Shown: piece by piece, positions 11,330 to 61,925 of the stretch
Numbering within the stretch: position 1 is the stretch's first letter
Layout: each line of letters begins with the position of its first letter
Source: Tubulanus polymorphus
Lineage: Eukaryota; Nemertea; Palaeonemertea; Tubulaniformes; Tubulanidae
Direction of reading: 5' to 3'
Length of the DNA: 64,000 bases
Assembly (NCBI RefSeq): GCF_964204645.1
Contig: NC_134032.1
Location: 14,564,275 to 14,628,274, forward strand
Position numbers and translations under genes: made by a program
The notes under the pieces: model-generated
Database searches by the model: none
Told to the model about the DNA's origin: nothing
Seen by the model: only the letters and a program-made list of their open reading frames with translations

Positions 11330-11720
11330 CTCGCGGAGACCGATACACTAGCACTGATCCCCACTGCTCGCGGAGACCGATACACTAGCACTGATCCCCA
11401 CTGCTCGCGGAGACCGATACACTTGCACTGATCCCCACTGTTAGCGGAGACCGATACACTAGCACTGATCCCCACTGCTCATGGAGACCGATACACTTGC
11501 ACTGATCCCCACTGCTCGCGGAGACCGATACACTTGCACTGATCCCCACTGCTCGCGGAGACCGATACACTAGCACTGATCCCCACTGCTCGCGGAGACA
11601 GATACACAAGCACAGATCCCCACTGCTCGCGGAGACCGATACACTAGCACTGATCCCCACTGCTCGCGGAGACCGATACACTAGCACTGATCCCCACTGC
11701 TCGCGGAGACTGGCACAGAT
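11330..11720. repeat. 37-bp minisatellite, about 10 units
   Basis: The unit CTCGCGGAGACCGATACACT...GCACTGATCCCCACTG repeats nearly perfectly. It lies just beyond the likely CLK poly(A) signal. Peptides readable from it are artefacts. Confidence 0.9.
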
Positions 11721-11781: not shown

Positions 11782-11787
11782 TTTATT
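11782..11787 (-). promoter_or_regulatory. Poly(A) signal for the CLK gene
   Basis: AATAAA on the minus strand lies about 217 nt after the CLK stop codon at 12004. It is the first such hexamer downstream. Confidence 0.5.
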
Positions 11788-12003: not shown

Positions 12004-15000
12004 TCATCTGCTCAGACTGTGCGATCGTTCGCGACTGGACGACGAGGTCGGGTTGCCGTTTTTCGCGACGAGGGCGCCCTCTAGACGTTGATGGCTCGGT
12101 AGCGGGTCGAAGAACGGATGTTGTAACGATTCGTCGAGGGAAAGCCTCTGAGATGGGTCGTATTCGAGCATCTTTTCGATCAGATCAAACAGATTACGAT
12201 GTTCTTTAGAATCGTTCATCATATAACGCTGAAAAACAAAACAGAAATTTCGTAAAAATTTATTTCGACGATTCGCGCAAAAGCTGATGAAATAATGTCA
12301 CATACAACGGGACCTCGTAATTTAAGTAATTCTCAACGTTTTGCATTTCCCCGAGAATTGTATTTTTCTAATTTTTCAATTTTCTTATTTCATGTAAAGT
12401 GCATAGATTACTATGGTAGAAAATGCGCTATATCAAGTAAATAGATTATCATTATTATTACTATAATTATCATCGTTACAATGTCTACAATCAGGGCACT
12501 TTCCGGCCATTTACAAATTCCTGAGATTTGCACAATTTTTTCATGTGATTACAGAAAATTCCCCGAGTAAATCAGAGAAGTTTCTTGGTTCAAAATGTTA
12601 CAATTCATTCGATTTTTATGCATCACGGTATTGAAAATATAAAGAAACACGTGGTCGATTGCATTATCCGATCTACCCGAGTTCTCCAGGTTTTTTGATA
12701 GAATTCCCTAAGTTTTCCCCGATTTGTTTCTAGATTTTTCTGATTCCCTGAGTTTTCTAGGTCAGTGGCGCTTCACTGGTGAGTGCCTGAGAAAAGCCCA
12801 TTTGTTATAACCGATAATTAGTTATATCCAGTACGAAGTAAACGTTAGTTGAAAATTCTAAGTTTGCTGTAACGAGGTTCCGCTGTATTTAGGTAATAAA
12901 ATGTTTAGTTGAACTATATTTCCCGAAATGATTGGCCCGACGGTCAGATGCTGTATCGAGGTTCCGCTGTATTTAGGTTATAAAATGTTTAGTTGAACTA
13001 TATTTCCCGAAATGATTGGCCCGACGGTCAGATGCTGTAATGAGGTTCCGCTGTATTTAGGTTATAAAATGTTTAGTTGAACTATATTTCCCGAATTGAT
13101 TGGCCCGACGGTCAGATTTAAACTCGGAAAACTGTAGCACTGAATCCTGGTTTTTAGTCATGATACGGAAAGCAATAAAACACGTCACGAAGCCAACCCC
13201 TTCACCCCCCACTTCCCCGACTGATATTTAACTCTAATGAATCTAACCAAATTCCACAAAACAGATGTAAAATAGATGAGAGCAAGGTTCCTACAATTCC
13301 CGGTATCCAGAATTCAAGGACTTTTCAAGGAATTTTCAAGGAGTAATTTTCAATATTCAAGGATGTTTACGCGGTCATATATAAGGAAAAAAAGTCGAAC
13401 ATTCAAAAACAAAATCCATGTTTTTCTCAAATTTTGATCAGTTGTTGTGTGTGCCGTTTTGGTTTTAATGTTTAAATGTTTTAAATCTCAAAGTGAAACA
13501 ACTTTCACTCACAAGTCACACAGTGAAGAATAATAGAATACACTGTCTTCTGAAAAGGACCTTTTGAAAAATTTTAATAGGACTTTCCCAGAATTTAAGG
13601 AGTTTCAAGGAGTTTATGGATATTTCTCAAAATTGAAGGATTTTCAAGGACCTTGAAAAATATATTCAAAAATCAAGGAGTTTTCAAGGAGTTGTAGGGA
13701 CCCTGGAGAGCTACGATACCATAAACTTTATGTGGAAAATATATTACATGCAGCGTGCAATAGGAGATTGAAAGCTAAGCACATTTAAATATGTGATCCT
13801 CAAGTGTGGGGACGTGGGCCTCTGATAAATGCTCTTCTTACCTGTAGCGGTTTACACAGTTTTTTAACTACCGAAGCTTGGTTACTGTTGCGACTTATCA
13901 ACGTCATCGAATCCGGCTTGAAATAGCGTTTTCTTGAAACGATAAAAAAATTTCGAAAAAATGTCGAAGGTAAGTCGGCGTACGCACTATTAACGGGACT
14001 TCATCGCCGGACTGCGCGTCTAAGTTATTCAATCGAAATCGGATGAAATCGAGCAAGATTTTGAAATTGAAATTTCTCTTTTTTTCAATCAGCGCCGAGA
14101 CTAGACGCTAGTTAATAGAAAATAACGCGCAGCCCGTATGAATAGTTGTCTGTCCGTCCATCTCGGTCAGGATTGAGAAGATCGAGGAAATAAAACAAAA
14201 ACATCAATAAAACTCAGGGTTCTTACAAGATCAGCGAATTAAAACTTAACCCAAATCCACTGACCAAAAATTTTCTGATTAAAATAAAAGATGTTCTCGA
14301 TGAGGGCTTTTTCTTAACCCTTTCAGTGCGTCTACACCGCAGTGCGGTGTATAAATCAGTGATGGATTTTGCTAGTACACCGCACTGCGGTGTATTGATG
14401 TAATTAGTAATTTGTAATTATCTCTATTGAAAAATGGCAGAAAGTGTCAAACATAGTGAAATACTAGTAACTAACGATACACCGCACTGCAGTGTAGACG
14501 CACTATAGTGGTATTCCCATTGTTCAACACACTAGGGTGGAATTTTTTAGAATTTTCAAATTTTCTCCAGCACTATAGGGTATTAATTAGTCAGCACTGA
14601 AAGGGTTAAAGGTTCCCTGAGCCACTCGGCAAGAACAACAAGACGCCAAAAAATTCATCGAATTCCCTCACTTTTCCGTGCGTGCAGTGCAGGGAAAAAT
14701 AAATCCAGAATTCAATGATATTTCCAATTCGTAAGAACCCCGAAAATTGGGCTTTCATGCTGCAAAAAATATAAATAAATGAAATAAAAGTCTATAGCTG
14801 CTACAGAAAAGCTTTTTAACACCTCGAAAATTGACTGAAGACACAGTGCCTGCTAAAACTAAAACAAATTTCAAAAAATATTAGAATATTTCATGAGAAA
14901 AAATCGAATAAATGAAAAAGCTCTTCGCCCGTCGATTATATATTTATATATATATATATATAAAAGCGTAATACGGGTTGTTGACACCAGGGGGCAGCAG

Positions 15001-18000
15001 GGTTAACGCACACGCACACATACAGAACATACCGTTACGATTTAGAGAACGAAAACAAAGCGTTGAAGAAAAAAAAAACAACTAAAATTTCATGCATTAT
15101 TTCAGTCCGAACGTAAAACCAGGTTTCAGTTTTCCGCAATTCATAAAACTGCGATAGCATCGTTTGTTACAACATGCGCGCTATCGTTACGAGACGTCCT
15201 TAAAATCCCGATCACCCTCAACCCCCGCCCTCCGAGCCACTGGGCTGCTGCTGCTGCTGCTGAACCGATTGACTTACGTAAAAGGGTTTACAGTTTTCGC
15301 GCACGTATCGACCGGCTGTGGTCGTAGCGTCCCAGTCTAGTCGGCCGTGCCAATAATAACCAGTTCTATAATATATTACAAACAGTATTACACAAAAACT
15401 TGATTCAACTGTATTACAGTAATACGTGATACGCAGGAGTGAGCGCGGCTTTAAACGGTAATACACACACATAGATAGCGAGCGTGGTTTTATAGAGACC
15501 TAGATCTATTCAATTCCACTGCATTAATGTGAGATCTTTTTCAAATTGTCAAACATCGTTTTAAGTCAATTTAAATTTGCTTAATTGCAACTGTTGAACC
15601 GGGCTCAGTTTTAATATCGTTATTCGAGGTTCAGTTGGTTCAGTTAAAACCTATCTATAAAACCGTGCCCCAGGGGGCGCTGCTAGTGCTGAAGGAGTGA
15701 TTAACTGACAGTACGCCTGTTATGCGGGTTGCGCGTTAGGAAGCCAGGACGGGACAGGGCGGGGCAAGCTGGGCCGGGGCAGGGCAGAGGTTCTGTTGTG
15801 TGGGTTGCCTGTTAAGGGAGCTGGACCGGGGTTCTGTTGTGTGGATGACGTGTTAGGGCCACGTTGGAGCGAGGGACATGCTAGGTTTTTATTTAGAGAT
15901 ACAAATGAAGCCTTCTTGTCGTCGACCTGTGAAGGAATAACATTCAAATTTTGTCGATTAGCAACAATATTGTTCTCTGATACAAAATTTCAGTTTCAAT
16001 CTCAGCCACCTGAACCACACGAATCGTAAACAGCCTGAAACATGAATTGTAATCAGCCTGAAACACAAATCATAATCAGCCTGAAACATGAATCGTAATC
16101 AGCCTGAAACATGAAACGTAATCAGCCTGAAACATGAAACGTAATCAGCCTGAAACATGAATCGTAATCAGCCTGAAACATGAATAGTAATCAGCAACCG
16201 TAATTAAGACTCGGGATGGACAGACAGACATTAAACTCATTTTCATTTACTATGATACGATATTTTGGTTTCAACAAATCAACAAATTAATTCACCAAAG
16301 ATTTCTCAATTTTAAAAATAACTTCTTTTTTTTGTCGAAATGCTTCTAATCTCGACGGGAAAACTTACTTGGATTTTTTTGCCATTCTGTAAGGAATCGA
16401 TCCTAATATTCGTTCCATCATTGCTAGGTGTTCTAAGTTATCGTGTGTCTGAAAATCAAAGAATATTCATTAACACGGTGGCGCCACTCACACTTTATCA
16501 GCTAAGAATCCAATCGATTAACGCAATGCAAGACATTGATGGAAACTGTCTGATTTTGCGCGATCTAACAATTTCAATAAATTCCCAGACCTCTGGGGCC
16601 GGTTCCATAGACAGGACTTAAGACCGGTCTAAGACAAACTTAGTTCTATAGCCAATCTAACAACTTAAGACAAGTCTTAAGGTTTAAGACCACTTTTGGT
16701 CTTAAGTCTCGACTATGGAACCAGCCCCTGGTGTTTTTTTCTTTAAAAAAATTCCCTGATTATTCCTAGACTTTTTTTTATAGCACAGAAAAATTCCCTG
16801 ACTTTTCTCTGATTCCCCCTGGTCAGTGACCGACCTTAATTAGTCACCGACGGTTGAGGTGAGGTACATGTATGAATCTGTGATACAACCTCGCTCACCG
16901 GACATTCTACACCGACTTATAGCATCACGAGACCCTGCCACATTCCTACCCTATTGGACCCAATTCCCTTTTGGAATAGTTTCAGTTGACAACGATGTAT
17001 TCGTGGTTGTGCAGAGGAGGGTAATTGCCACATACCTGGAATAGCGTGTAACCAGTGTATAATTCAAATATAATACAACCAATACTCCACGTATCACAAG
17101 GTTGACTCCAACCTAATTCTATAAAAGACAAACATACAAAAATAATGTTTACTTATATCAAAATTACTGGAACCAGGTTGATCAAGTATCTAACTGACGG
17201 TAGAAAATCCCTGCACACTAAGAATAAAAGAGTCTGAAATGTTTCCTTGAGCTAGTGTAGTTTATTCAACGTTTCGACTTTATCCTAATAGCCATCTTCA
17301 GGAATACTGTATTCCTTGAGCTAGTGTAGTTTATTCAACGTTTCGACTATATCCTAATAGTCATCTTCAGGAATACTGTATTCCTTGAGCTAGTGTAGTT
17401 TATTCAACGTTTCGACTATATCCTAATAGTCATCTTCAGGAATACTGTATTCCTTGAGCTAGTGTAGTTTATTCAACGTTTCGACTTTATCCTAATAGTC
17501 ATCTTCAGGAATACTGTATTCCTTGAGCTAGTGTAGTTTATTCAACGTTTCGACTATATCCTAATAGTCATCTTCAGGAATACTGTATTCCTTGAGCTAG
17601 TGTAGTTTATTCAACGTTTCGACTTTATCCTAATAGTCATCTTCAGGAATACTGTATTCCTTGAGCTAGTGTAGTTTATTCAACGTTTCAACTTTATCCT
17701 AATAGTCATCTTCAGGAATACTGTATTCCCTGACCTAGTGTAGTTTATTCAACGTTTCGACTTTATCCTAATAGTCATCTTCAGGAATACTGTATTCCTT
17801 GAGCTAGTGTAGTTTATTCAACGTTTCGACTTTATCCTAATAGTCATCTTCGGGAATACTGTATTCCTTGAGCTAGTGTAGTTTATTCAACGTTTCGACT
17901 TTATCCTAATAGTCATCTTCAGGAATACTGTATTCCTTGAGCTAGTGTAGTTTATTCAACGTTTCAACTTTATCCTAATAGTCATCTTCAGGAACACTGT

Positions 18001-21000
18001 ATTCCTTTTATTCAATTGATGCTGACATGAAGACATATATGTGTTATGTATGTCCAAAATCCAGAGAGAATGGCCATACCATAAAGAGAATGGCCGCACT
18101 GGACGTAAACAAACTCCTAAAACCTCAAAAGGGATAAAGACTGATTTTTCATCGAATGTTTTACGCGGCCACGGCTGATAACTACTGACCTAATATCACT
18201 TCAGGCGCTCTGTAGTGTCGTGTAGATACGATCGTGCTGTGATGTTCGTGGTCGAACGTCGCCGATCCGAAATCAATCAGTCGTATATCGGTATTCTTCA
18301 CAAAACGAACGTCTTTTTTCTACAGTGAGAAAATATCAACAACAGGCGTTTATGAAGTTTTAAAAAGATGACTTGTCAATTTTTTTTCTCGAAACTCTCG
18401 CACGACCGAAGTCACAAACCTTTTTACTGTTGTAAACCGTGTCATAATCGGAATCGACGAATAAGATATTTTCAGGTTTCAAATCCGTGTGGGTCAATTT
18501 CAGACGATGCAAAACTGTAGAAAAAAAAATAAATTCATAAATCGATGAGTCAAATATTTAAGCCTGATTCGTTACGAGTGCCGCCATCTATTGGCGTACG
18601 GATGACTTACATCTAACGCTATAACACAGTTGATACGCTATATGTCGAACTTGATGCAGTTTATACGGATAATAATTATTATCTTTCTGTAAACGAGAAA
18701 AAATATGAGAATATTAGTAAAAAAACATTCACAAGTTCATCGGCGGCTTCCAAAAAAATGCCAAAGTTTCAGGGTTAACTTGAATCTAGAATCAAAGCAG
18801 CGATAACGGGTTTTCTGCGTTGATGACCGTACAAAGTTTCATCGAAATCAGTCATTATCAGTTCAACCAAAACGGTATTTTTTGGTAGGAGCGCCACCTA
18901 GGGGTCAACACCTGTATTATACATTTGGTTCAAAGAGTACAAACCAGATTTGAGGACAACGGAGAAAACTATACGAACAATGCCACAATTCAGGGTTGAA
19001 TTGGAATAGGTTCATTTTGCATTCGTTTCTAAATCGTGGGTCATATTTAAAACTCTGCATTGACTGTGGGACTGGATTCTGTTTGCTTTCCAACGATAGC
19101 GTCAATGACCTATCTCATTTAAAGACTTTAAAGGACTCTTTTTTACTCCCAATTAATCGTATAAACTTACCAGAAAATCAAACACGCTTAAACCCAACAT
19201 GTCAAACGCGAGGCACATGTGACCGTGATAGTCAAACCAGTCCATCATATGTACACAGAGACTGCAGAAAAAAAAACAAGAAATATTTACAATCTAAAAT
19301 ACTGAAAACAATTGGAAATCAATTTGTAACTAAATTCTGCTGTTCTAAAAAGCGTTTAAAGTTTGCTCTGCTAAAATATCTGACAAAGAACGATTTCTCT
19401 ATTCAACTTTTCCCTCCTCTCCCTTCCCCTGGGGGGTGCCAACCTCTGACAACAGCTATCAATAACGAATAGAATCTTTCTTCAGTATAAACATTTCATA
19501 TAAAATATGAAAGAAAATGTTCGAATCAAGCGATCAACAGTGAGACCCTTCACGAATATCAAAACAAATCGAATCAGTATTTCTCATAATGAAATACCGA
19601 TATTGGCAGCTCTGTTTCTCCTCGTCGTCCCGAAACCTTTCGAATAAACTCACTTCTTTCCTTCGGGATCTTTATCTTGTAGTTTTTCCAGCACGTTGAT
19701 CTCGAGTTTCGCAGCTTCGCGATACTTCGTCACATTCTTTATCACCTTCAACGCGACATCCATTCCATTTCTGTTTAACGAAGAAAAAAAAACATGACAA
19801 CTGAAATATCTAAATGAACCTGTGCAGTGGCTGCGTGAAGGTCTCAAGGTATGATCTGCTGTACTACAGCTTGGCAACACTATGAATTTTCCATGTTACA
19901 GGGTTCTTTTTTTTTATAGATTAGGGATCGAAATTCCTTAAAATTATATATTTCCCCCGACACTTGGACAGATTCCTTGATAAGATATCATCATTGGCAG
20001 CTGTTTCTTATCAAGAGGTTCCTTGTGCCACTGGTCACCAGTCAGAACAACAAGACACCAAAAACACATATTCCCTGATAAGATTATAAGATATCCGCAG
20101 TGCGAACTGATTCTTCTGGTTTATCAAAGAATCATTGATCGTCTTCATATTCCAAACCTCTCATGAATAAATGGTTTCCCATAGTAAACAAGCAGATCAC
20201 ATGCTACTCATATCCAAGTCTCTGATTCGCCAGAGCTGGTCACCTGGTATGCAAATTACCCACATGGTCACTAGCCCTGGCCCCTGATTGGCCAGAGCTA
20301 GTCACATGATGTGCAAATTACCCCAAGGTCACTAACCCTAGCCCCTGATTGGTCAGTGCTGGTCACATGGTATGCAAATTACCAACATGGTCAATAAACC
20401 TAGACCCTGATTGGTCAGTGCTGGTCACCTGGTATGCAAATTACCCACATGGTCACTAACCCTGGCCCCTGATTGGCCAGAGCTGGTCACATGGTGTGCA
20501 AATTACCCCAAGGTCACTTACCCTAGCCCCTGATTGGTCAGTGCTGGTCACATGGTATGCAAATTACCCACATGGTCAATAAACCTAGACCCTGATTGGT
20601 CAGTGCTGGTCACTTGGTATGCAAATTACCTACATGGTCACTAACCCTGGCCCCTGATTGGCCAGAGCTGGTCACATGGTGTGCAAATGACCCCAAGGGA
20701 TTAACCCTAGCCCCTGATTGGTCAGTGCTGGTCACATGGTATGCAAATTAACCACATGGTCACTAACCATAGACCCTGATTGGTCAGTGCTGGTCACATG
20801 GTGTGCAAATTACCCACATGGTCACTAACCATAGACCCTGATTGGTCAGTGCTGGTCACATGGTATAAACAAATAGACCAACCTTGTAGCATGACCAAAT
20901 GTGTCAACATGAATTGACTTGGATTTTTATTGGATTGTTTTTTTTTGTAAAGTTAGATTGATTCTTGTTTGAATAAATTCTTAAAACTTAAAATTTATGG

Positions 21001-24000
21001 GTTTTTCTTATCTCATTAATAAGTTAAAATCCTGGATCCAGTTCCACAATTAGTGAGTTGAATTTGACCCTGTAGAGCAAAAAATTCTAAGATGAACTCC
21101 GGAGCTCACAACTCTCTCAAACTCAGATGTCAATTTTGCTGCCTTTAAACACACTGAATTAATGATGATATTCTAAACGCAGTTTGATTTTACCAGTAAA
21201 CTGCGTTCCACACTCAGAAACAAGCTTCATCATGTTCATACACTACACGCACTGAGAGTACTAACACTGCATCAGTGTGGTTTTTATCGAGTGCTAGAAA
21301 TACCTGAGAGGAGTGGAGAAGAATGATGAGGGGAGAGGAGCAGGTAGATGAGTGGGAGGGGAGGTGATAGAAGAGATTTGGAGGATTAGAAACTTTTATA
21401 AGCCTTTGTTGGCTTCATCTAATCTCCTCCACATTGTATTAAAATGACCAATGCTTGTATATTTTTTGTATATCATTATGGTATGTTGTAATTTATCGTG
21501 GAAATGATTAATTATCGTTATTATTATCACGACGAGGGAGGAGTTGAGCTGGAGAGGGATTCAAAGGTGGTAAGGGGAGAGAGATTAGAGGCAGAGGAAG
21601 ATGAAAGAGGTTAAAAGCTTGGAGCAAATGAGGAAGGGAAAAGGAGTCAGTAGGAAAGAGTATATAAAGGCATAGATAGAGGGAGGGACAGGGAGGGAGG
21701 TAGGGGCAGAGAGGAAGAGGAAGGTGTGGGGAGGGGAAGGAAAGGCAGGGATATGGAGAGAGAAGGGAGACGGCGGCAGGGAGGGAGGCGGCGAGAGGGG
21801 AAGGAGAGGCAGGGAAAGGGAGAGGGAGGGGAAGAGAGGGAGGTATGGAGAGGGATAAGGATAGGGAAAGAGGGAGAGGAAGGCAGGGAGAGAGGGAGGC
21901 AGTGAGAGGGGAAGGAGCGGGCAGGGAGAGGAAGGCAGGGAGAGAGGGGAAGGAGAGGGCAGGGAGAGGAAGGCAGGGAGAGAGGGGAAGGAGAGGGCAG
22001 GGAGCGAGGGAGAGGGCAGGGAAAGAGGGAGGCAAGGAGGCAGGGAGTTTAGATGTTATGAAGTGAAGCATGCGTTCGATGTACCAGGTATTTATCTATA
22101 AATTAAACATTACGTCAGCCACCTGTGTGTTTTCCTCCCCTCCCCCTCCTCCTCCCTCCCCCTGATTCCGGCTAGTAACTACTTGTATATATATACCTAT
22201 CTAACCGAGTTGTATCTATATATCTACATGTATTAAGACTTTCCTCGAAAACTGACGTTTAAACTAACAAGAATACAACGTAGCAGTTTACGTCATCGTT
22301 AACAGCCACGCAGTAGAATTATTGAGTATACCTCCGCTAAACCGTCAGACGGGTGGAGGGAGAGAGGGGGGGTAATAGATAAACCATACTAGGGTTCAGG
22401 GAACATAATAATAAACACTATATATATATTACTATCATACTGCCGGTTTTATGGAGTGGTATTACCTTTAACCCGCAGGCTCACTCAATTCATTATCAAT
22501 TTAGTTAGCCCCCGGGTTAAAGGTAATACCACTCTATAAAACCGGGCCCTGAGGTTCTTACAGATCAACAAATCCATATTTCCCTGTCCCTTGACCGAAA
22601 ATTCCATGATTAAATTATAAGATATTTTCAGTGAGGGCTGTTTCTTATCAAAAGGTTCCTTGTGTCACTCGTCAGAACAACAAGACACCAAAAATTCAAA
22701 TCCCGACTTTTCAAGAAAAAGATATATCAGAATTCCCTCATTTTCCGTGATCTGTAAGAACCCTGGATAAACAGTTTAGTACATCGAAGTTGAGTTCAGT
22801 ACATCGAAGTACGTCGACAGTTGAGTACATCGAAGGGTTAGGATCGGTTGATGGAACGCCTGCTTCATTCGTGTCGGGAATGACCAGGGGGGTTTGTTAG
22901 GGATGACACGAAATAAGCATCAAGTCAAATCAAATAAGATGGAGGTTCATGCGAAAAGAAAAAATATGATCTACTCACTTTTGTCGGTCTTTAACGTGGA
23001 TCACTCGTCCGAACGTACCCTCACCTAAAGTTCGAATAACTTCGTCTGAAAAAAGACCAATCGACAGGCGTCAATCACCACGTCAGAACGACCCTGCCCC
23101 GCCCACTGATGGATAGAGAGGGTGTGTCGGATATGTCGGACCCCAGACGTCGAACGACTGGAATCCAACATAACCCACGTTGCGTCTCAACCGACGACGA
23201 TGACGAATTCTTCGAAGCGTTTTTCCGCGATGAAATTTTTTTGCGTCGTGAAATTTTTTCCGAAGAATTCGCGCGTTTCTTTTTTTTCATCGCGGAAGAA
23301 ACACCTCGAAAATAACGTCAAACGCTAAGTAAAAATCGATCGGACAAAAAATTTACCAAAAATATTTTCACAATTTTATTTTAATGGGGTCAATTTCTAG
23401 TTAGCGTTTTCGCGTCGATACAGAACCTGAAAATAATCTCACTAATTAAGAATTCATTATCATTGATCAATTTACTTTTTCTAACAAACTATTTTCAAGT
23501 TTGATGATATCGGTTTTTTTTAAGCATCCACTTGCAGGCCTTTAGGCGGACGCTGTATTTAACTTCAATCTAGGTTTCAAGGCTAGGAATGCAGCAGCCA
23601 ATAACAAACGTGCCGCATCTAGGGCAAGATAGACCCTCGTGAGGGCAGAATGTACCCTCGTAAGGGCAACACATGTTCTCATTAAGGGGGTCTGCTAATA
23701 GGGGGCTCTGTGATCATTAAGAGTTTGAACTCTTCTTCATACGAGGATAATTTTGATAATAATAACTCACGGCGACGGCTGGCATTGTTGCTAAACGACC
23801 AGCGGTTTCAACGATACCACGCGCCTCGTCATCATTATTTCCAAAAAAGAAATGGCCAAATATTTCTTTTTTTCACTTTTAAGAAAATCGAGAGCGATTG
23901 AGAGAGAGAGAGACTGGGTATTTGATATTTAAACGTTACGAAAAGAAAGTTGTGTGTACATCTAGCTTGTAGAAGATCGCCTGTCTTATAGATGAGGTGC

Positions 24001-39600: not shown

Positions 39601-42600
39601 GAATCCTTACTTAGAAACTTAGAATACTTAAGAATCATTAAAACTGCACCGAAACAATCGGGAAGGTTCCATTACCCAGATCAATGAAGTGGAGATTTGT
39701 TGCAAAATGGCGATGCCCAGAGATTGAGTATTCAAGTATTCAGTAAAAACTGAGTAGCCTAAAAGTGGTGGCGATATTCAAACAAGCAAATTCTCATCCA
39801 CTACCGTGCCATGACAGTTTTTTTCTTGTTTTACAGATGGATACCGCGAAGGGATGCTGTTGGAAGTGCGACAAACCGCGGGATGTGAAAACTTGCAGCA
39901 GATGTAAAATTGCTAAATACTGCACAAATCAATGTCTACAAGCCGATGCTGCGAAACATAGGGTACAAAATACTATCTGTTATTTCTGTCATCAGTAGGC
40001 GATTACCAAAAACTCATCCCCCCCGACCTGCAACGTATAATCACCGATAATTTCAGCCCACATTTTTCTCTAAATGTTATAGATCGACTGTCAATATTTG
40101 GGAACCGACAAAAATCGACCGTGTGATTTCTGTCAGCAAGTGAAACCATCGCGGATGTGCAGTAGGTGTTTAGAAGTCGGTTACTGCTCAAAAGATTGTC
40201 AACGCAAAGACTGGCCGTCGCATAAACAAGGGTGCAACGAATTTAAACATAACATGCTTCGTGATTTCCGTTCAGGGTTCGTACTATTTGTGTGTCTTCC
40301 ATTTTCTATAACTTCCAAAGGGCCAAATTTCCATAAAGTGGAACCTCATTATAATGACCTCTGAAACTACGATTTATCAGATATACCAAACTTAAAATAT
40401 GGTCTAGTGTAAAAAGCTATTGGTTATTAAGATTTTCAACGACTTTCAGGTCCGGTGGGATTACTCAATATAGGCCTATCCAATTCTATGATTTACCGTG
40501 GTACTGGGGCAATCAGGCCGCAGTCGATTGGTTACAGTTGCCGAACAAAGAGGGCGCTGACTACGAACGCGACATCAACGTCTTGAGCGTTGGATGCGGT
40601 AACCTCGGTAACGTATTGTTGACGACGGCGAACGTACCAGACGCGTTCCGCAACAAAGTGAATTTCGTTCTGGTTGATTTTTGTCCGCACATAATGGCTA
40701 GAAATGTGCTGTTTCACTACATGATAACAGCTGCAGCAACGGAATACCAACAACGCGGTCCGGAACGCGGCGAGGACCAAACTGACAAGGCATGTCGTTT
40801 GATGTCACAGATCATGTATTCCCTGCGATTGTCTCCGGACGCGCGGAATTATTTGGTCGCGGCTCTGGAAACACTCGTCGAAATGAATGAAGAAAACGCT
40901 GATCATATTTTGGGAGGAAAGTTTGAAACATTAAAACAAATTTGGCAAAAATGGAAAGATTTGGCGTTTGACGACGCAGCTGTGGAGGCGATGAGATCAA
41001 CTAGAACTGACATGATGAGCACAGCAAATGAGCAAAACGGAATTGATCATTATCTGGCATCGATACCAAAACGTTACGTAAAATCGTGTAAACAGTGGTT
41101 CGAAAATGGACTGTTCGCTCGGACCCGAGACACGGACGAACGAGAAAAGATGAAATTCCCGAATCCAACCCTAACGATGATGAATCCATGGCTCAATGAA
41201 TCGGAAGATGAAGAATTATTGCGGCGAATTTTGTTGAATTACTACCAACAACGACCAAACTACCGGGACGAGATGTTGTACGTGGTTCACTTCAATTGCG
41301 CAGCGCCACACTGGTGGAAGTACGACGACGTACGACGACACCGCGACAACGATGACATCATCGACATGTTCGACGCGTATTTCAGACATGTTTTACGCCG
41401 AGCGATTGTTAACTATCGCCGTATCAACGTCACGTTCATCGTCGACGACTACAGACAAATCAATAAATACATCGGAGACCGAAAATTTGACCGAATCGCC
41501 ACGTCGAATGTGGCCGATTATTACAAAGGTTTGTACGAGCTCGTCGATGACATGGCGCCGCGTTTGAACCGCGAAAATAATCACTCAGTTTTGATGACAT
41601 CACTGATGAACTGGCCCTTCAGACCAGTAATCATAGCTGCCGAAGAAATTGCTAAAATGAAAGCTAGAATCAGCAAACTGTTCAAAGGGGTGACATTGAA
41701 ACTTGAAGACGATTTGGAATTTCAGGAAAGTAATATTGATCGGTGGCCGGCATTTTTGAATTACCTACGAGGCATGTTACAAGCTCATTTGAAATGTCGA
41801 AATGTCGTCAAACTGAATGATGTTTGGAAATGCCGAAACGGAGTGCGTCTGGCGAGGTTTGATTTATTCGAGAATTCAATCGTACCGTTCCAGCGTTCAC
41901 AAGTGAAATACGCAGTCAACCTACCACAGAAATACGAGAGAAATTTGGAATTCATTGTCGCCGATAGCGATGACGAAATGTAGTTCACAAAGGTCAACGA
42001 GCCTCATTTGACGAGTAATTCTCGATTGAGAACATTGATGAATAATACTTTATGATAAAAATAAGTAACTACCGTAAATAAGAATATCTGAAAGAGCTCT
42101 CACCAGTGTTCAGTGTTTTCAATAAGAAATTAATAAGCCAGGTCCCTTTGAAAAACAGGAGGGTCCCATAATATGTCACAGTCCCTGAAATGAAAGCTGG
42201 TTTGAAAAATCAAGGCGGGTCCTTTACAAACGACAGACAGGTCTGGGACCTGGCTCTTATTGAAAACACTGGTGTTGAGTTCGAATTGCTACAATAGATA
42301 TCCGCATTTTTTAATTTCATTTTTTTCAATGTACCCTCAACGCACTGAGTGCCAATTTACGATAAACTGAATCAATTAAGAAATTAAATCAAATCGATAG
42401 AATCGAATCTGTGTGAAACGTTTTTGTGGGGTTAAAATTGGAATTTAGGAGGGTTAAAACCTTCGAAATGCACCGATTATAGATCAACTTGTATATAGGC
42501 CTAGTTGTATTTAACAGATAAACTGTAGTTGAACTGAGAGTCCTGTGGTTTATATCCAACAACTGAGAAAGGATGTAAGGGGTTGACTTTATCTAGGGCT

Positions 42601-61099: not shown

Positions 61100-61925
61100 T
61101 ATTCCAGACCCAGTTCCACAGTTAAGAACCCAGTTCCACAGTTCTGGACCAAGTTCCACAGTTCTGGACCCAGTTCCACAGTTCTGGACCCAGTTCCACA
61201 GTTCTGGACCCAGTTCCACAGTTCTGGACCGAGTTCCACAGTTCTGGACCCAGTTCCACAGTTCTGGACTCAGTTCCACAGTTCTGGACCCAGTTCCACA
61301 GTTCTGGACCCAGTTCCACAGTTCTGGACCCAGTTCCACAGTTCTGGACTCAGTTCCACAGTTCTGGACCCAGTCCCACAGTTCTGGACTCAGTTCCACA
61401 GTTCAGAACCCAGTTCCACAGTTCTGGACTCAGTTCCACAGTTCTGGACCCAGTTCCACAGTTCTGGACCCAGTTCCACAGTTCTGGACCCAGTTCCACA
61501 GTTCTGGACCCAGTTCCACAGTTCTGGACCCAGTTCCACAGTTCTGGACTCAGTTCCACAGTTCTGGACCCAGTTCCACAGTTCTGGACCCAGTTCCACA
61601 GTTCTGGACCCAGTTCCACAGTTCTGGACCCAGTTCCACAGTTCTGGACTCAGTTCCACAGTTCTGGACCCAGTCCCACAGTTCTGGACTCAGTTCCACA
61701 GTTCAGAACCCAGTTCCACAGTTCTGGACTCAGTTCCACAGTTCTGGACCCAGTTCCACAGTTCTGGACCCAGTTCCACAGTTCTGGACCCAGTTCCACA
61801 GTTCTGGACCCAGTTCCACAGTTCTGGACCCAGTTCCACAGTTCTGGACCCAGTTCCACAGTTCTGGACCCAGTTCCACAGTTCTGGACCCAGTTCCACA
61901 GTTCTGGACTCAGTTCCACAGTTAT
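61100..61925. repeat. 20-bp satellite (GGACCCAGTTCCACAGTTCT), ~41 units
   Basis: Near-perfect 20-bp units carry variants (GGACTCAG, CAGTCCCACA, GTTCAGAACC). The variant pattern of 61361-61420 recurs at 61661-61720, giving a 300-bp higher-order unit. The core is the terminus of the GGTTCCACAGTT element family. Open minus-strand frames are artefacts. Confidence 0.95.

Follow-up and report, generated by a model that had tools for sequence, protein, structure and literature searches.

Can one kinase gene make two different kinases by exchanging a single exon within its catalytic domain? The question is raised by a stretch of 64,000 nt from the nemertean Tubulanus polymorphus (assembly GCF_964204645.1, contig NC_134032.1, positions 14,564,275 to 14,628,274; the whole stretch is called the window here), the minus strand of which carries a gene for a kinase of the CLK, or LAMMER, family. 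Between the exon with the LAMMER motif and the last coding exon lie two exons in series, A and B, either of which can complete the kinase frame. We hold, with a probability of about three in four, that they are an old tandem exon duplication now working as a mutually exclusive pair in an animal CLK gene. As judged from its sequence, this one CLK gene can probably make two different kinases.

Exon borders and reading frames

The gene model covers the kinase exons from the glycine loop to the last coding exon, as assembled from the DNA and read from the assembled translation:

22979-23046, minus strand: kinase exon with the GEGTFGRV glycine loop (its 5′ end is placed approximately and is probably at 23045)
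19654-19770, minus strand: kinase exon with VALK
19171-19261, minus strand: kinase exon
18611-18686, minus strand: kinase exon
18420-18514, minus strand: kinase exon with the HTDLKPEN catalytic loop
18190-18319, minus strand: kinase exon with DFG and the activation segment, including a 25-residue stretch identical to human CLK2
17036-17118, minus strand: kinase exon
16369-16448, minus strand: upstream exon with the LAMMER motif, ending in a split codon (AA)
15278-15365, minus strand: exon A, the canonical CLK segment, 88 nt, phase 2 in, phase 0 out
13842-13932, minus strand: exon B, the alternative segment, 91 nt, phase 2 in, phase 0 out
12004-12228, minus strand: last coding exon (RYMMNDS...HPFF...), with an AATAAA poly(A) signal at 11787

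The LAMMER motif, the HTD catalytic loop and the kinase domain, as seen in the assembled translation, the PDB match and the Pfam Pkinase match, place the product among the CLK (LAMMER) kinases. The closest solved relative in a PDB search with the product containing exon A (isoform A) is human CLK2, at 555 bits.

An initial annotation of the window had drawn attention to the pair, and its description was reproduced in coordinates, strand, phases and GT-AG dinucleotides. The same is true of the end motifs, CKPFY in A and CKPLQ in B, and of the absence of RLDWD and AGRYV from B. The exons are adjacent, internal, alike in phase and length (88 vs. 91 nt) and open in frame. Exon A, with the donor TAC/GTAAGT, aligns with the GRLDWD... 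segment of human CLK2.

Either exon supplies the base missing from the split AA codon of the LAMMER exon, which ends at 16369, and joins the last exon, which starts at 12228, in frame. Transcripts with A only or B only would translate into a complete kinase frame that reads through to the C-terminal end. Translation of A joined to B bears out the claimed frame shift: 16 codons of B are read before a stop, which occupies nt 49-51 of that exon and lies 40 nt upstream of the last junction. When both exons are skipped, the stop falls at nt 8-10 of the last exon. Joint inclusion and joint skipping would each truncate the kinase before the last part of the C-lobe. No third alternative exon was seen in the 4.1-kb interval between the LAMMER exon and the last exon (12229-16368), where the best 10 of 56 candidates all overlap A or B.

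What could keep the two exons apart? Steric exclusion and incompatibility of splice type are ruled out, as both exons are of the GT-AG type and lie 1,345 nt apart. Stops nearer than 50-55 nt to the last junction usually escape nonsense-mediated decay (NMD). With one stop 40 nt from that junction and the other inside the last exon, the two wrong products are unproductive yet not classical NMD targets, and the case for NMD as the enforcer of exclusivity is weakened. Since neither wrong product would be removed in this way, clean exclusivity would need control of splicing itself. The spliceosome would pick A or B, one per transcript, and regulated splicing would enforce the choice; we infer this from the ordinary splice sites, the distance between the exons and the fate of the wrong products.

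The frame shift could itself be the purpose of exon B. Inclusion of both exons would end the protein within B, giving a kinase without its last helices, and the message should escape NMD by the distance rule just given. In mammals, skipping of exon 4 or retention of intron 4 of CLK1 yields a truncated inactive kinase, an outcome comparable to this one, and inhibition of CLK1 shifts the splicing of its own transcripts between full-length and truncated forms (PMC10082069). Such a truncation switch, however, needs neither CLK-like residues, nor phases compatible with those of A, nor an open frame in the B-only transcript, and exon B has all of these. We consider it improbable. An exclusive pair would resemble mammalian CLK1 in that alternative splicing of CLK transcripts sets kinase output; it differs in that both forms keep the full domain.

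Coding status and age of exon B

As candidate exons we took every interval from an AG to a GT that has an open frame in the entry phase and codes for 25-35 residues. Each was globally aligned (BLOSUM62) with the corresponding segments of human CLK1, CLK2 and CLK3, with CLK4 left out of the reference segments of the chance tests. The score of exon B is 36. Of the 893 candidates in the window, four reach 21 or more, namely exon B itself and three that overlap exon A. Order-3 Markov sequence amounting to 149.8 Mb gave 2 candidates out of 935,907 that reach 36. In real sequence from this genome, 20 stretches of 10 kb taken arbitrarily (200 kb), none of 2,369 candidates did so, and the maximum was 13. 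Exon B was also shuffled 20,000 times, a test that makes no correction for its having been picked by eye: no run reached 36 against the human segments, and a single one reached the score of 9 between A and B.

These counts bear on the possibility that exon B arose by chance, as a stretch that merely happens to be open from an AG to a GT. The exon is short (91 nt), and its 30 residues searched alone give no PDB match at E ≤ 10, both of which suit a chance origin. The simulated rate of about 2e-6 per candidate, multiplied by hand by 6.2 candidates per kb, comes to about 6e-5 for the 4.1-kb interval, and real candidates stop at 13, far from 36. A chance origin is thus very improbable indeed.

The splice sites had been called good without distinction. 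On a matrix built from the 8 other donors and 8 other acceptors of the gene, this stands for exon B: its donor (CAG/GTAAGA) ranks 2nd among the 227 GTs of the interval, topped only by that of the LAMMER exon, and its acceptor 3rd among the 186 AGs. It fails for the acceptor of exon A, which is weak on the same matrix; one constitutive acceptor is even lower in a leave-one-out comparison. Weak acceptors are common in regulated exons.

Codon usage was scored with a small training set of 831 codons. The log-odds are +5.5 bits for exon B and +6.4 for exon A, compared with 9.4 (standard deviation 6.1) for the training exons and -14.2 (standard deviation 12.6) for open intronic 90-mers. Only 1.8% of 1,364 overlapping 90-mers of the latter kind equal or exceed exon B, and 1.2% match or exceed it on synonymous codon choice alone. 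With 9 flanking residues added, exon B finds 7 distinct PDB sequences at E ≤ 10, all of them CLK3, and 5 of the 5 printed alignments are in register. As whole products, isoform B scores 431-520 bits and isoform A 450-555 bits against CLK1-4 in PDB; the Pfam Pkinase scores are 169.8 for B and 168.7 for A. An origin of exon B as a piece of a repeat or mobile element is unsupported: a genome-wide DNA search, with very common words skipped, matches only exon B itself.

In sum, it is well supported that exon B is a real duplicated, coding and frame-compatible alternative exon in the C-lobe of the CLK kinase. For this much of the initial annotation the homology, the splice sites, the use of codons and the tests against chance all speak; its further proposal, exclusive use and two kinase versions in the animal, is inferred.

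How old is the duplication? Of the 29 residues and 87 nucleotides that align between exons A and B, 5 and 31, respectively, are identical. The alignment scores of exon B are 35 with human CLK1, 26 with CLK2 and 36 with CLK3, and 9 with exon A; those of exon A with the same three are 76, 102 and 72. Two residues of CLK1-3, F412 and L436, are kept in exon B, where exon A has Y and F; a basic residue before Tyr411 is likewise in the CLK state in B and changed in A. As exon B is nearer to the human CLKs than to exon A and has the CLK states at F412 and L436, it is no recent copy of present-day A, and the duplication looks old.

Divergence of this degree also suits a dying relic, a copy left unspliced or spliced as noise, and so does the loss from exon B of a Trp that is strictly conserved in CLKs. 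Against decay stand the open frame, the strong donor and acceptor, the exon-like synonymous codon use and the CLK residues that are kept. In a simulation of substitutions only, starting from exon A, a neutral copy kept its frame and both splice dinucleotides in 11.6%, 2.8%, 1.1% and 0.2% of cases at 0.3, 0.6, 1 and 2 substitutions per site, respectively, the last two values being those that apply to a divergence like that of A and B. A relic is accordingly unlikely, and long retention of exon B under selection is probably the simplest reading.

The exchanged segment

The MAPK-like insert of CLK1 has been described as having its second helix replaced by a two-strand sheet (residues 409-418), which is followed by helix αH (424-432). 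Helix αH covers the site equivalent to the substrate-docking groove of SRPK1 and helps to bury the LAMMER helix, αG, and the αG alanine of the LAMMER motif packs on the strictly conserved Trp419 (PMC2667211). A second account agrees on αH (PMC10952393). By alignment, the 29-30 residues exchanged here correspond approximately to CLK1 409-437, and counting by hand along CLK1, with the LAMMER motif at 386, gives position 419 for the Trp, in agreement with the published number. The exchange thus takes in the second half of the MAPK-like insert: the two-strand sheet, Trp419 and helix αH. The catalytic motifs all lie outside it.

Isoform A has the Trp, within RLDWD, and isoform B does not, a difference that bears on isoform B only and leaves the family assignment of the gene untouched. 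Exon B keeps the Tyr-Phe, one Val and the Cys-Lys-Pro-Leu of the segment and has no Trp at all. Its charges are 7 basic to 1 acidic, those of exon A 4 to 3, and those of human CLK1-3 7-9 to 4. Form A would be an ordinary CLK. Form B would retain all the catalytic motifs and an αH-like basic tail, and would lack the Trp packing on the LAMMER helix; it should be a kinase in which the surface covering that helix is rebuilt. An altered docking or regulatory surface may make substrate choice, stability or temperature profile differ between the forms; it may open a groove like that of the SRPKs or bind some other partner. A 2025 paper counts the MAPK-like insertion among three variation hotspots of CLKs. 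At one point its text puts the insertion ahead of the LAMMER motif, at another between its helices 7 and 8; the thermal profiles of CLKs, according to the same paper, are set outside the activation segment (PMC12795684).

A bolder version of this idea, which we find unlikely, is that the LAMMER helix is covered or uncovered according to the exon chosen. With no Trp to seal it and an αH segment that is basic almost throughout, form B would then expose or re-charge an SRPK-type docking groove, and the two forms would correspond to a free-roaming and a docking-guided mode, or to two temperature-activity profiles. If so, one exon would achieve what takes several paralogues in vertebrates and plants, and the kinase's own splicing activity might control the choice.

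Precedents, control of exon choice and the wider locus

Exclusive exon pairs in kinases are already known. JNK exon 6 sits around the GEMV/GELV segment before helix αG. The JNK 6a/6b pair is like the present one in being mutually exclusive and in the C-lobe of a CMGC kinase; it differs in that the exchange lies upstream, before αG, whereas the CLK exchange lies downstream of the LAMMER helix. Exons 6a and 6b of JNK1/2/3 (MAPK8/9/10) are listed as altering substrate binding (PMC8699841, PMC8586503, PMC7259801). FYN also exchanges tandem duplicated exons within its kinase, giving FynB and FynT (PMC9741552); there, however, the protein is a tyrosine kinase, and the exchange affects its SH2-kinase linker and the N-terminal portion of its kinase domain.

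Doa of Drosophila belongs to the same gene family. One paper calls a splice site in the MAPK-like region of CLKs known, and conserved between Drosophila and humans (PMC12795684). Doa also appears in a list of Drosophila genes with mutually exclusive exons defined by expressed sequence tags, their position in the gene not being stated in the excerpt (PMC3303723). The Doa isoforms described in the excerpts cited, by contrast, vary in promoters and N-termini (PMC9653240, PMC12795684). The statement of the initial annotation that it knew of no description of exclusive exons at this point of CLK genes is therefore to be taken with caution. A review searched for the term CLK mentions the skipping of exon 4 (PMC10082069). 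The main text of a survey of human mutually exclusive exons contains "CLK" 0 times (PMC5740500), and no paper on an exon swap in the CLK αH segment was found among the matches listed, as far as titles and the beginnings of abstracts tell. With two hints of prior art, the Doa list and the conserved splice site, the novelty of this CLK site is unproven.

Sequence patterns of CLK were also scanned for in contigs of microbes. None of the 18 matches in viral contigs is a relative; in bacterial and archaeal contigs 2 of 49 are, both bacterial and neither a eukaryotic CLK, and they were not used as evidence. The loci, in Succinimonas and Ruminobacter, code for a protein about 35% identical to the query running from the CLK activation segment to the LAMMER motif.

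Signals that might guide the choice of exon were looked for in 12229-16368. Two copies of TGCATG, which we take to be possible Rbfox sites, are leads only:

15091-15096, minus strand: TGCATG, 182 nt downstream of the exon A donor
13747-13752, minus strand: TGCATG, 90 nt downstream of the exon B donor

These two compare with 0.8 expected (standard deviation 0.8), in one of four motif sets scanned. The intron between A and B also holds a 296-bp repeat (14314-14609) with TTAA at both ends, which we presume to be piggyBac-like, and with strong inverted repeats. Out of 3,035 candidate copies in a first look, 40 were scored, this copy among them, and all match at 99-100%; the element looks like a recently active miniature inverted-repeat transposable element.

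Several observations weigh against an exclusive pair and have to be set beside the evidence above. The null for coding potential uses the same introns as its training set. The best PDB match of exon B with its flanks has E 0.83 over the whole sequence and about 4 over the part that aligns; by itself it falls short of significance, and it includes the shared flanks. The exon alone, as said, has no match; with a database signal this weak, the case for exon B rests on its position and on the controls. Exchange of A for B costs 17-35 bits against the CLKs. Exon A is far nearer to the human CLKs (72-102) than exon B is (26-36), and loss of the strictly conserved Trp could destabilise the fold. The direct similarity of A and B is only 5-6% of the self score, below the exon-similarity floor of 15% used in a Drosophila survey with WebScipio; homology is nevertheless indicated by the shuffle tests. 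The retained ancestral residues number 2-3 sites, spotted post hoc. The other regulatory motifs are near or under their expected numbers (YCAY clusters 1 vs. 1.4, TCTCT 4 vs. 5.4, ACTAAY 4 vs. 3.6). No docking/selector RNA system was recognised among the 19 inverted pairs of the interval, of which the strongest lie within the 296-bp repeat and the rest are short or AT-rich, figures that come without a null comparison. Finally, one copy of the JNK exon that is a mutually exclusive pair in vertebrates was seen in this genome; it codes for the GEMV/GELV segment, and a second copy was not seen in the three forward frames of a 1.6-kb piece (C4:1752900-1754500). JNK thus provides no positive control for exon pairs in this genome.

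The genome has 268 Mb in 77 contigs, and the window occupies 14.56-14.63 Mb of a contig 16.7 Mb long. A genome search with a query from the LAMMER motif to the end of the protein had 15 matches at E ≤ 10 and no second CLK gene among them: three are strong and come from exons of the gene itself, the LAMMER part of the query is covered only by the gene's own exon, and the best match elsewhere (E 0.0015) involves the C-terminal part only. A second CLK gene as the source of exon B was thus not seen, although a missing match is no proof of absence. The animal apparently has one CLK gene, as reported for many invertebrate groups (PMC12795684).

Two minisatellites flank or interrupt the gene, one of 69 bp (11 copies, 97% match) in a CLK intron at 17243-18007 and one of 37 bp (about 10 copies) at 11330-11710, just downstream of the poly(A) signal. 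The whole window is dense in such sequences, with 44 tandem-repeat rows at a score of at least 150, some overlapping; one, at 61107-61923, has a 20-bp unit in about 41 copies and is open in several frames on both strands. Elsewhere in the window are a long plus-strand frame with a DUF4470 domain (40358-41983), preceded by frames at 39747-40364 that we take to be MYND-finger-like, a minus-strand frame with a Fibrinogen_C domain (1806-2537) and a plus-strand FAM167 frame (723-1049).

The interest of the exon pair lies in what it replaces. The structural account of how CLK and SRPK differ in docking rests on this very segment (PMC2667211, PMC10952393), and a natural exchange of it would be a ready-made test of that explanation. 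The gene would also be an example of a splicing kinase that has been diversified through splicing instead of through gene duplication.

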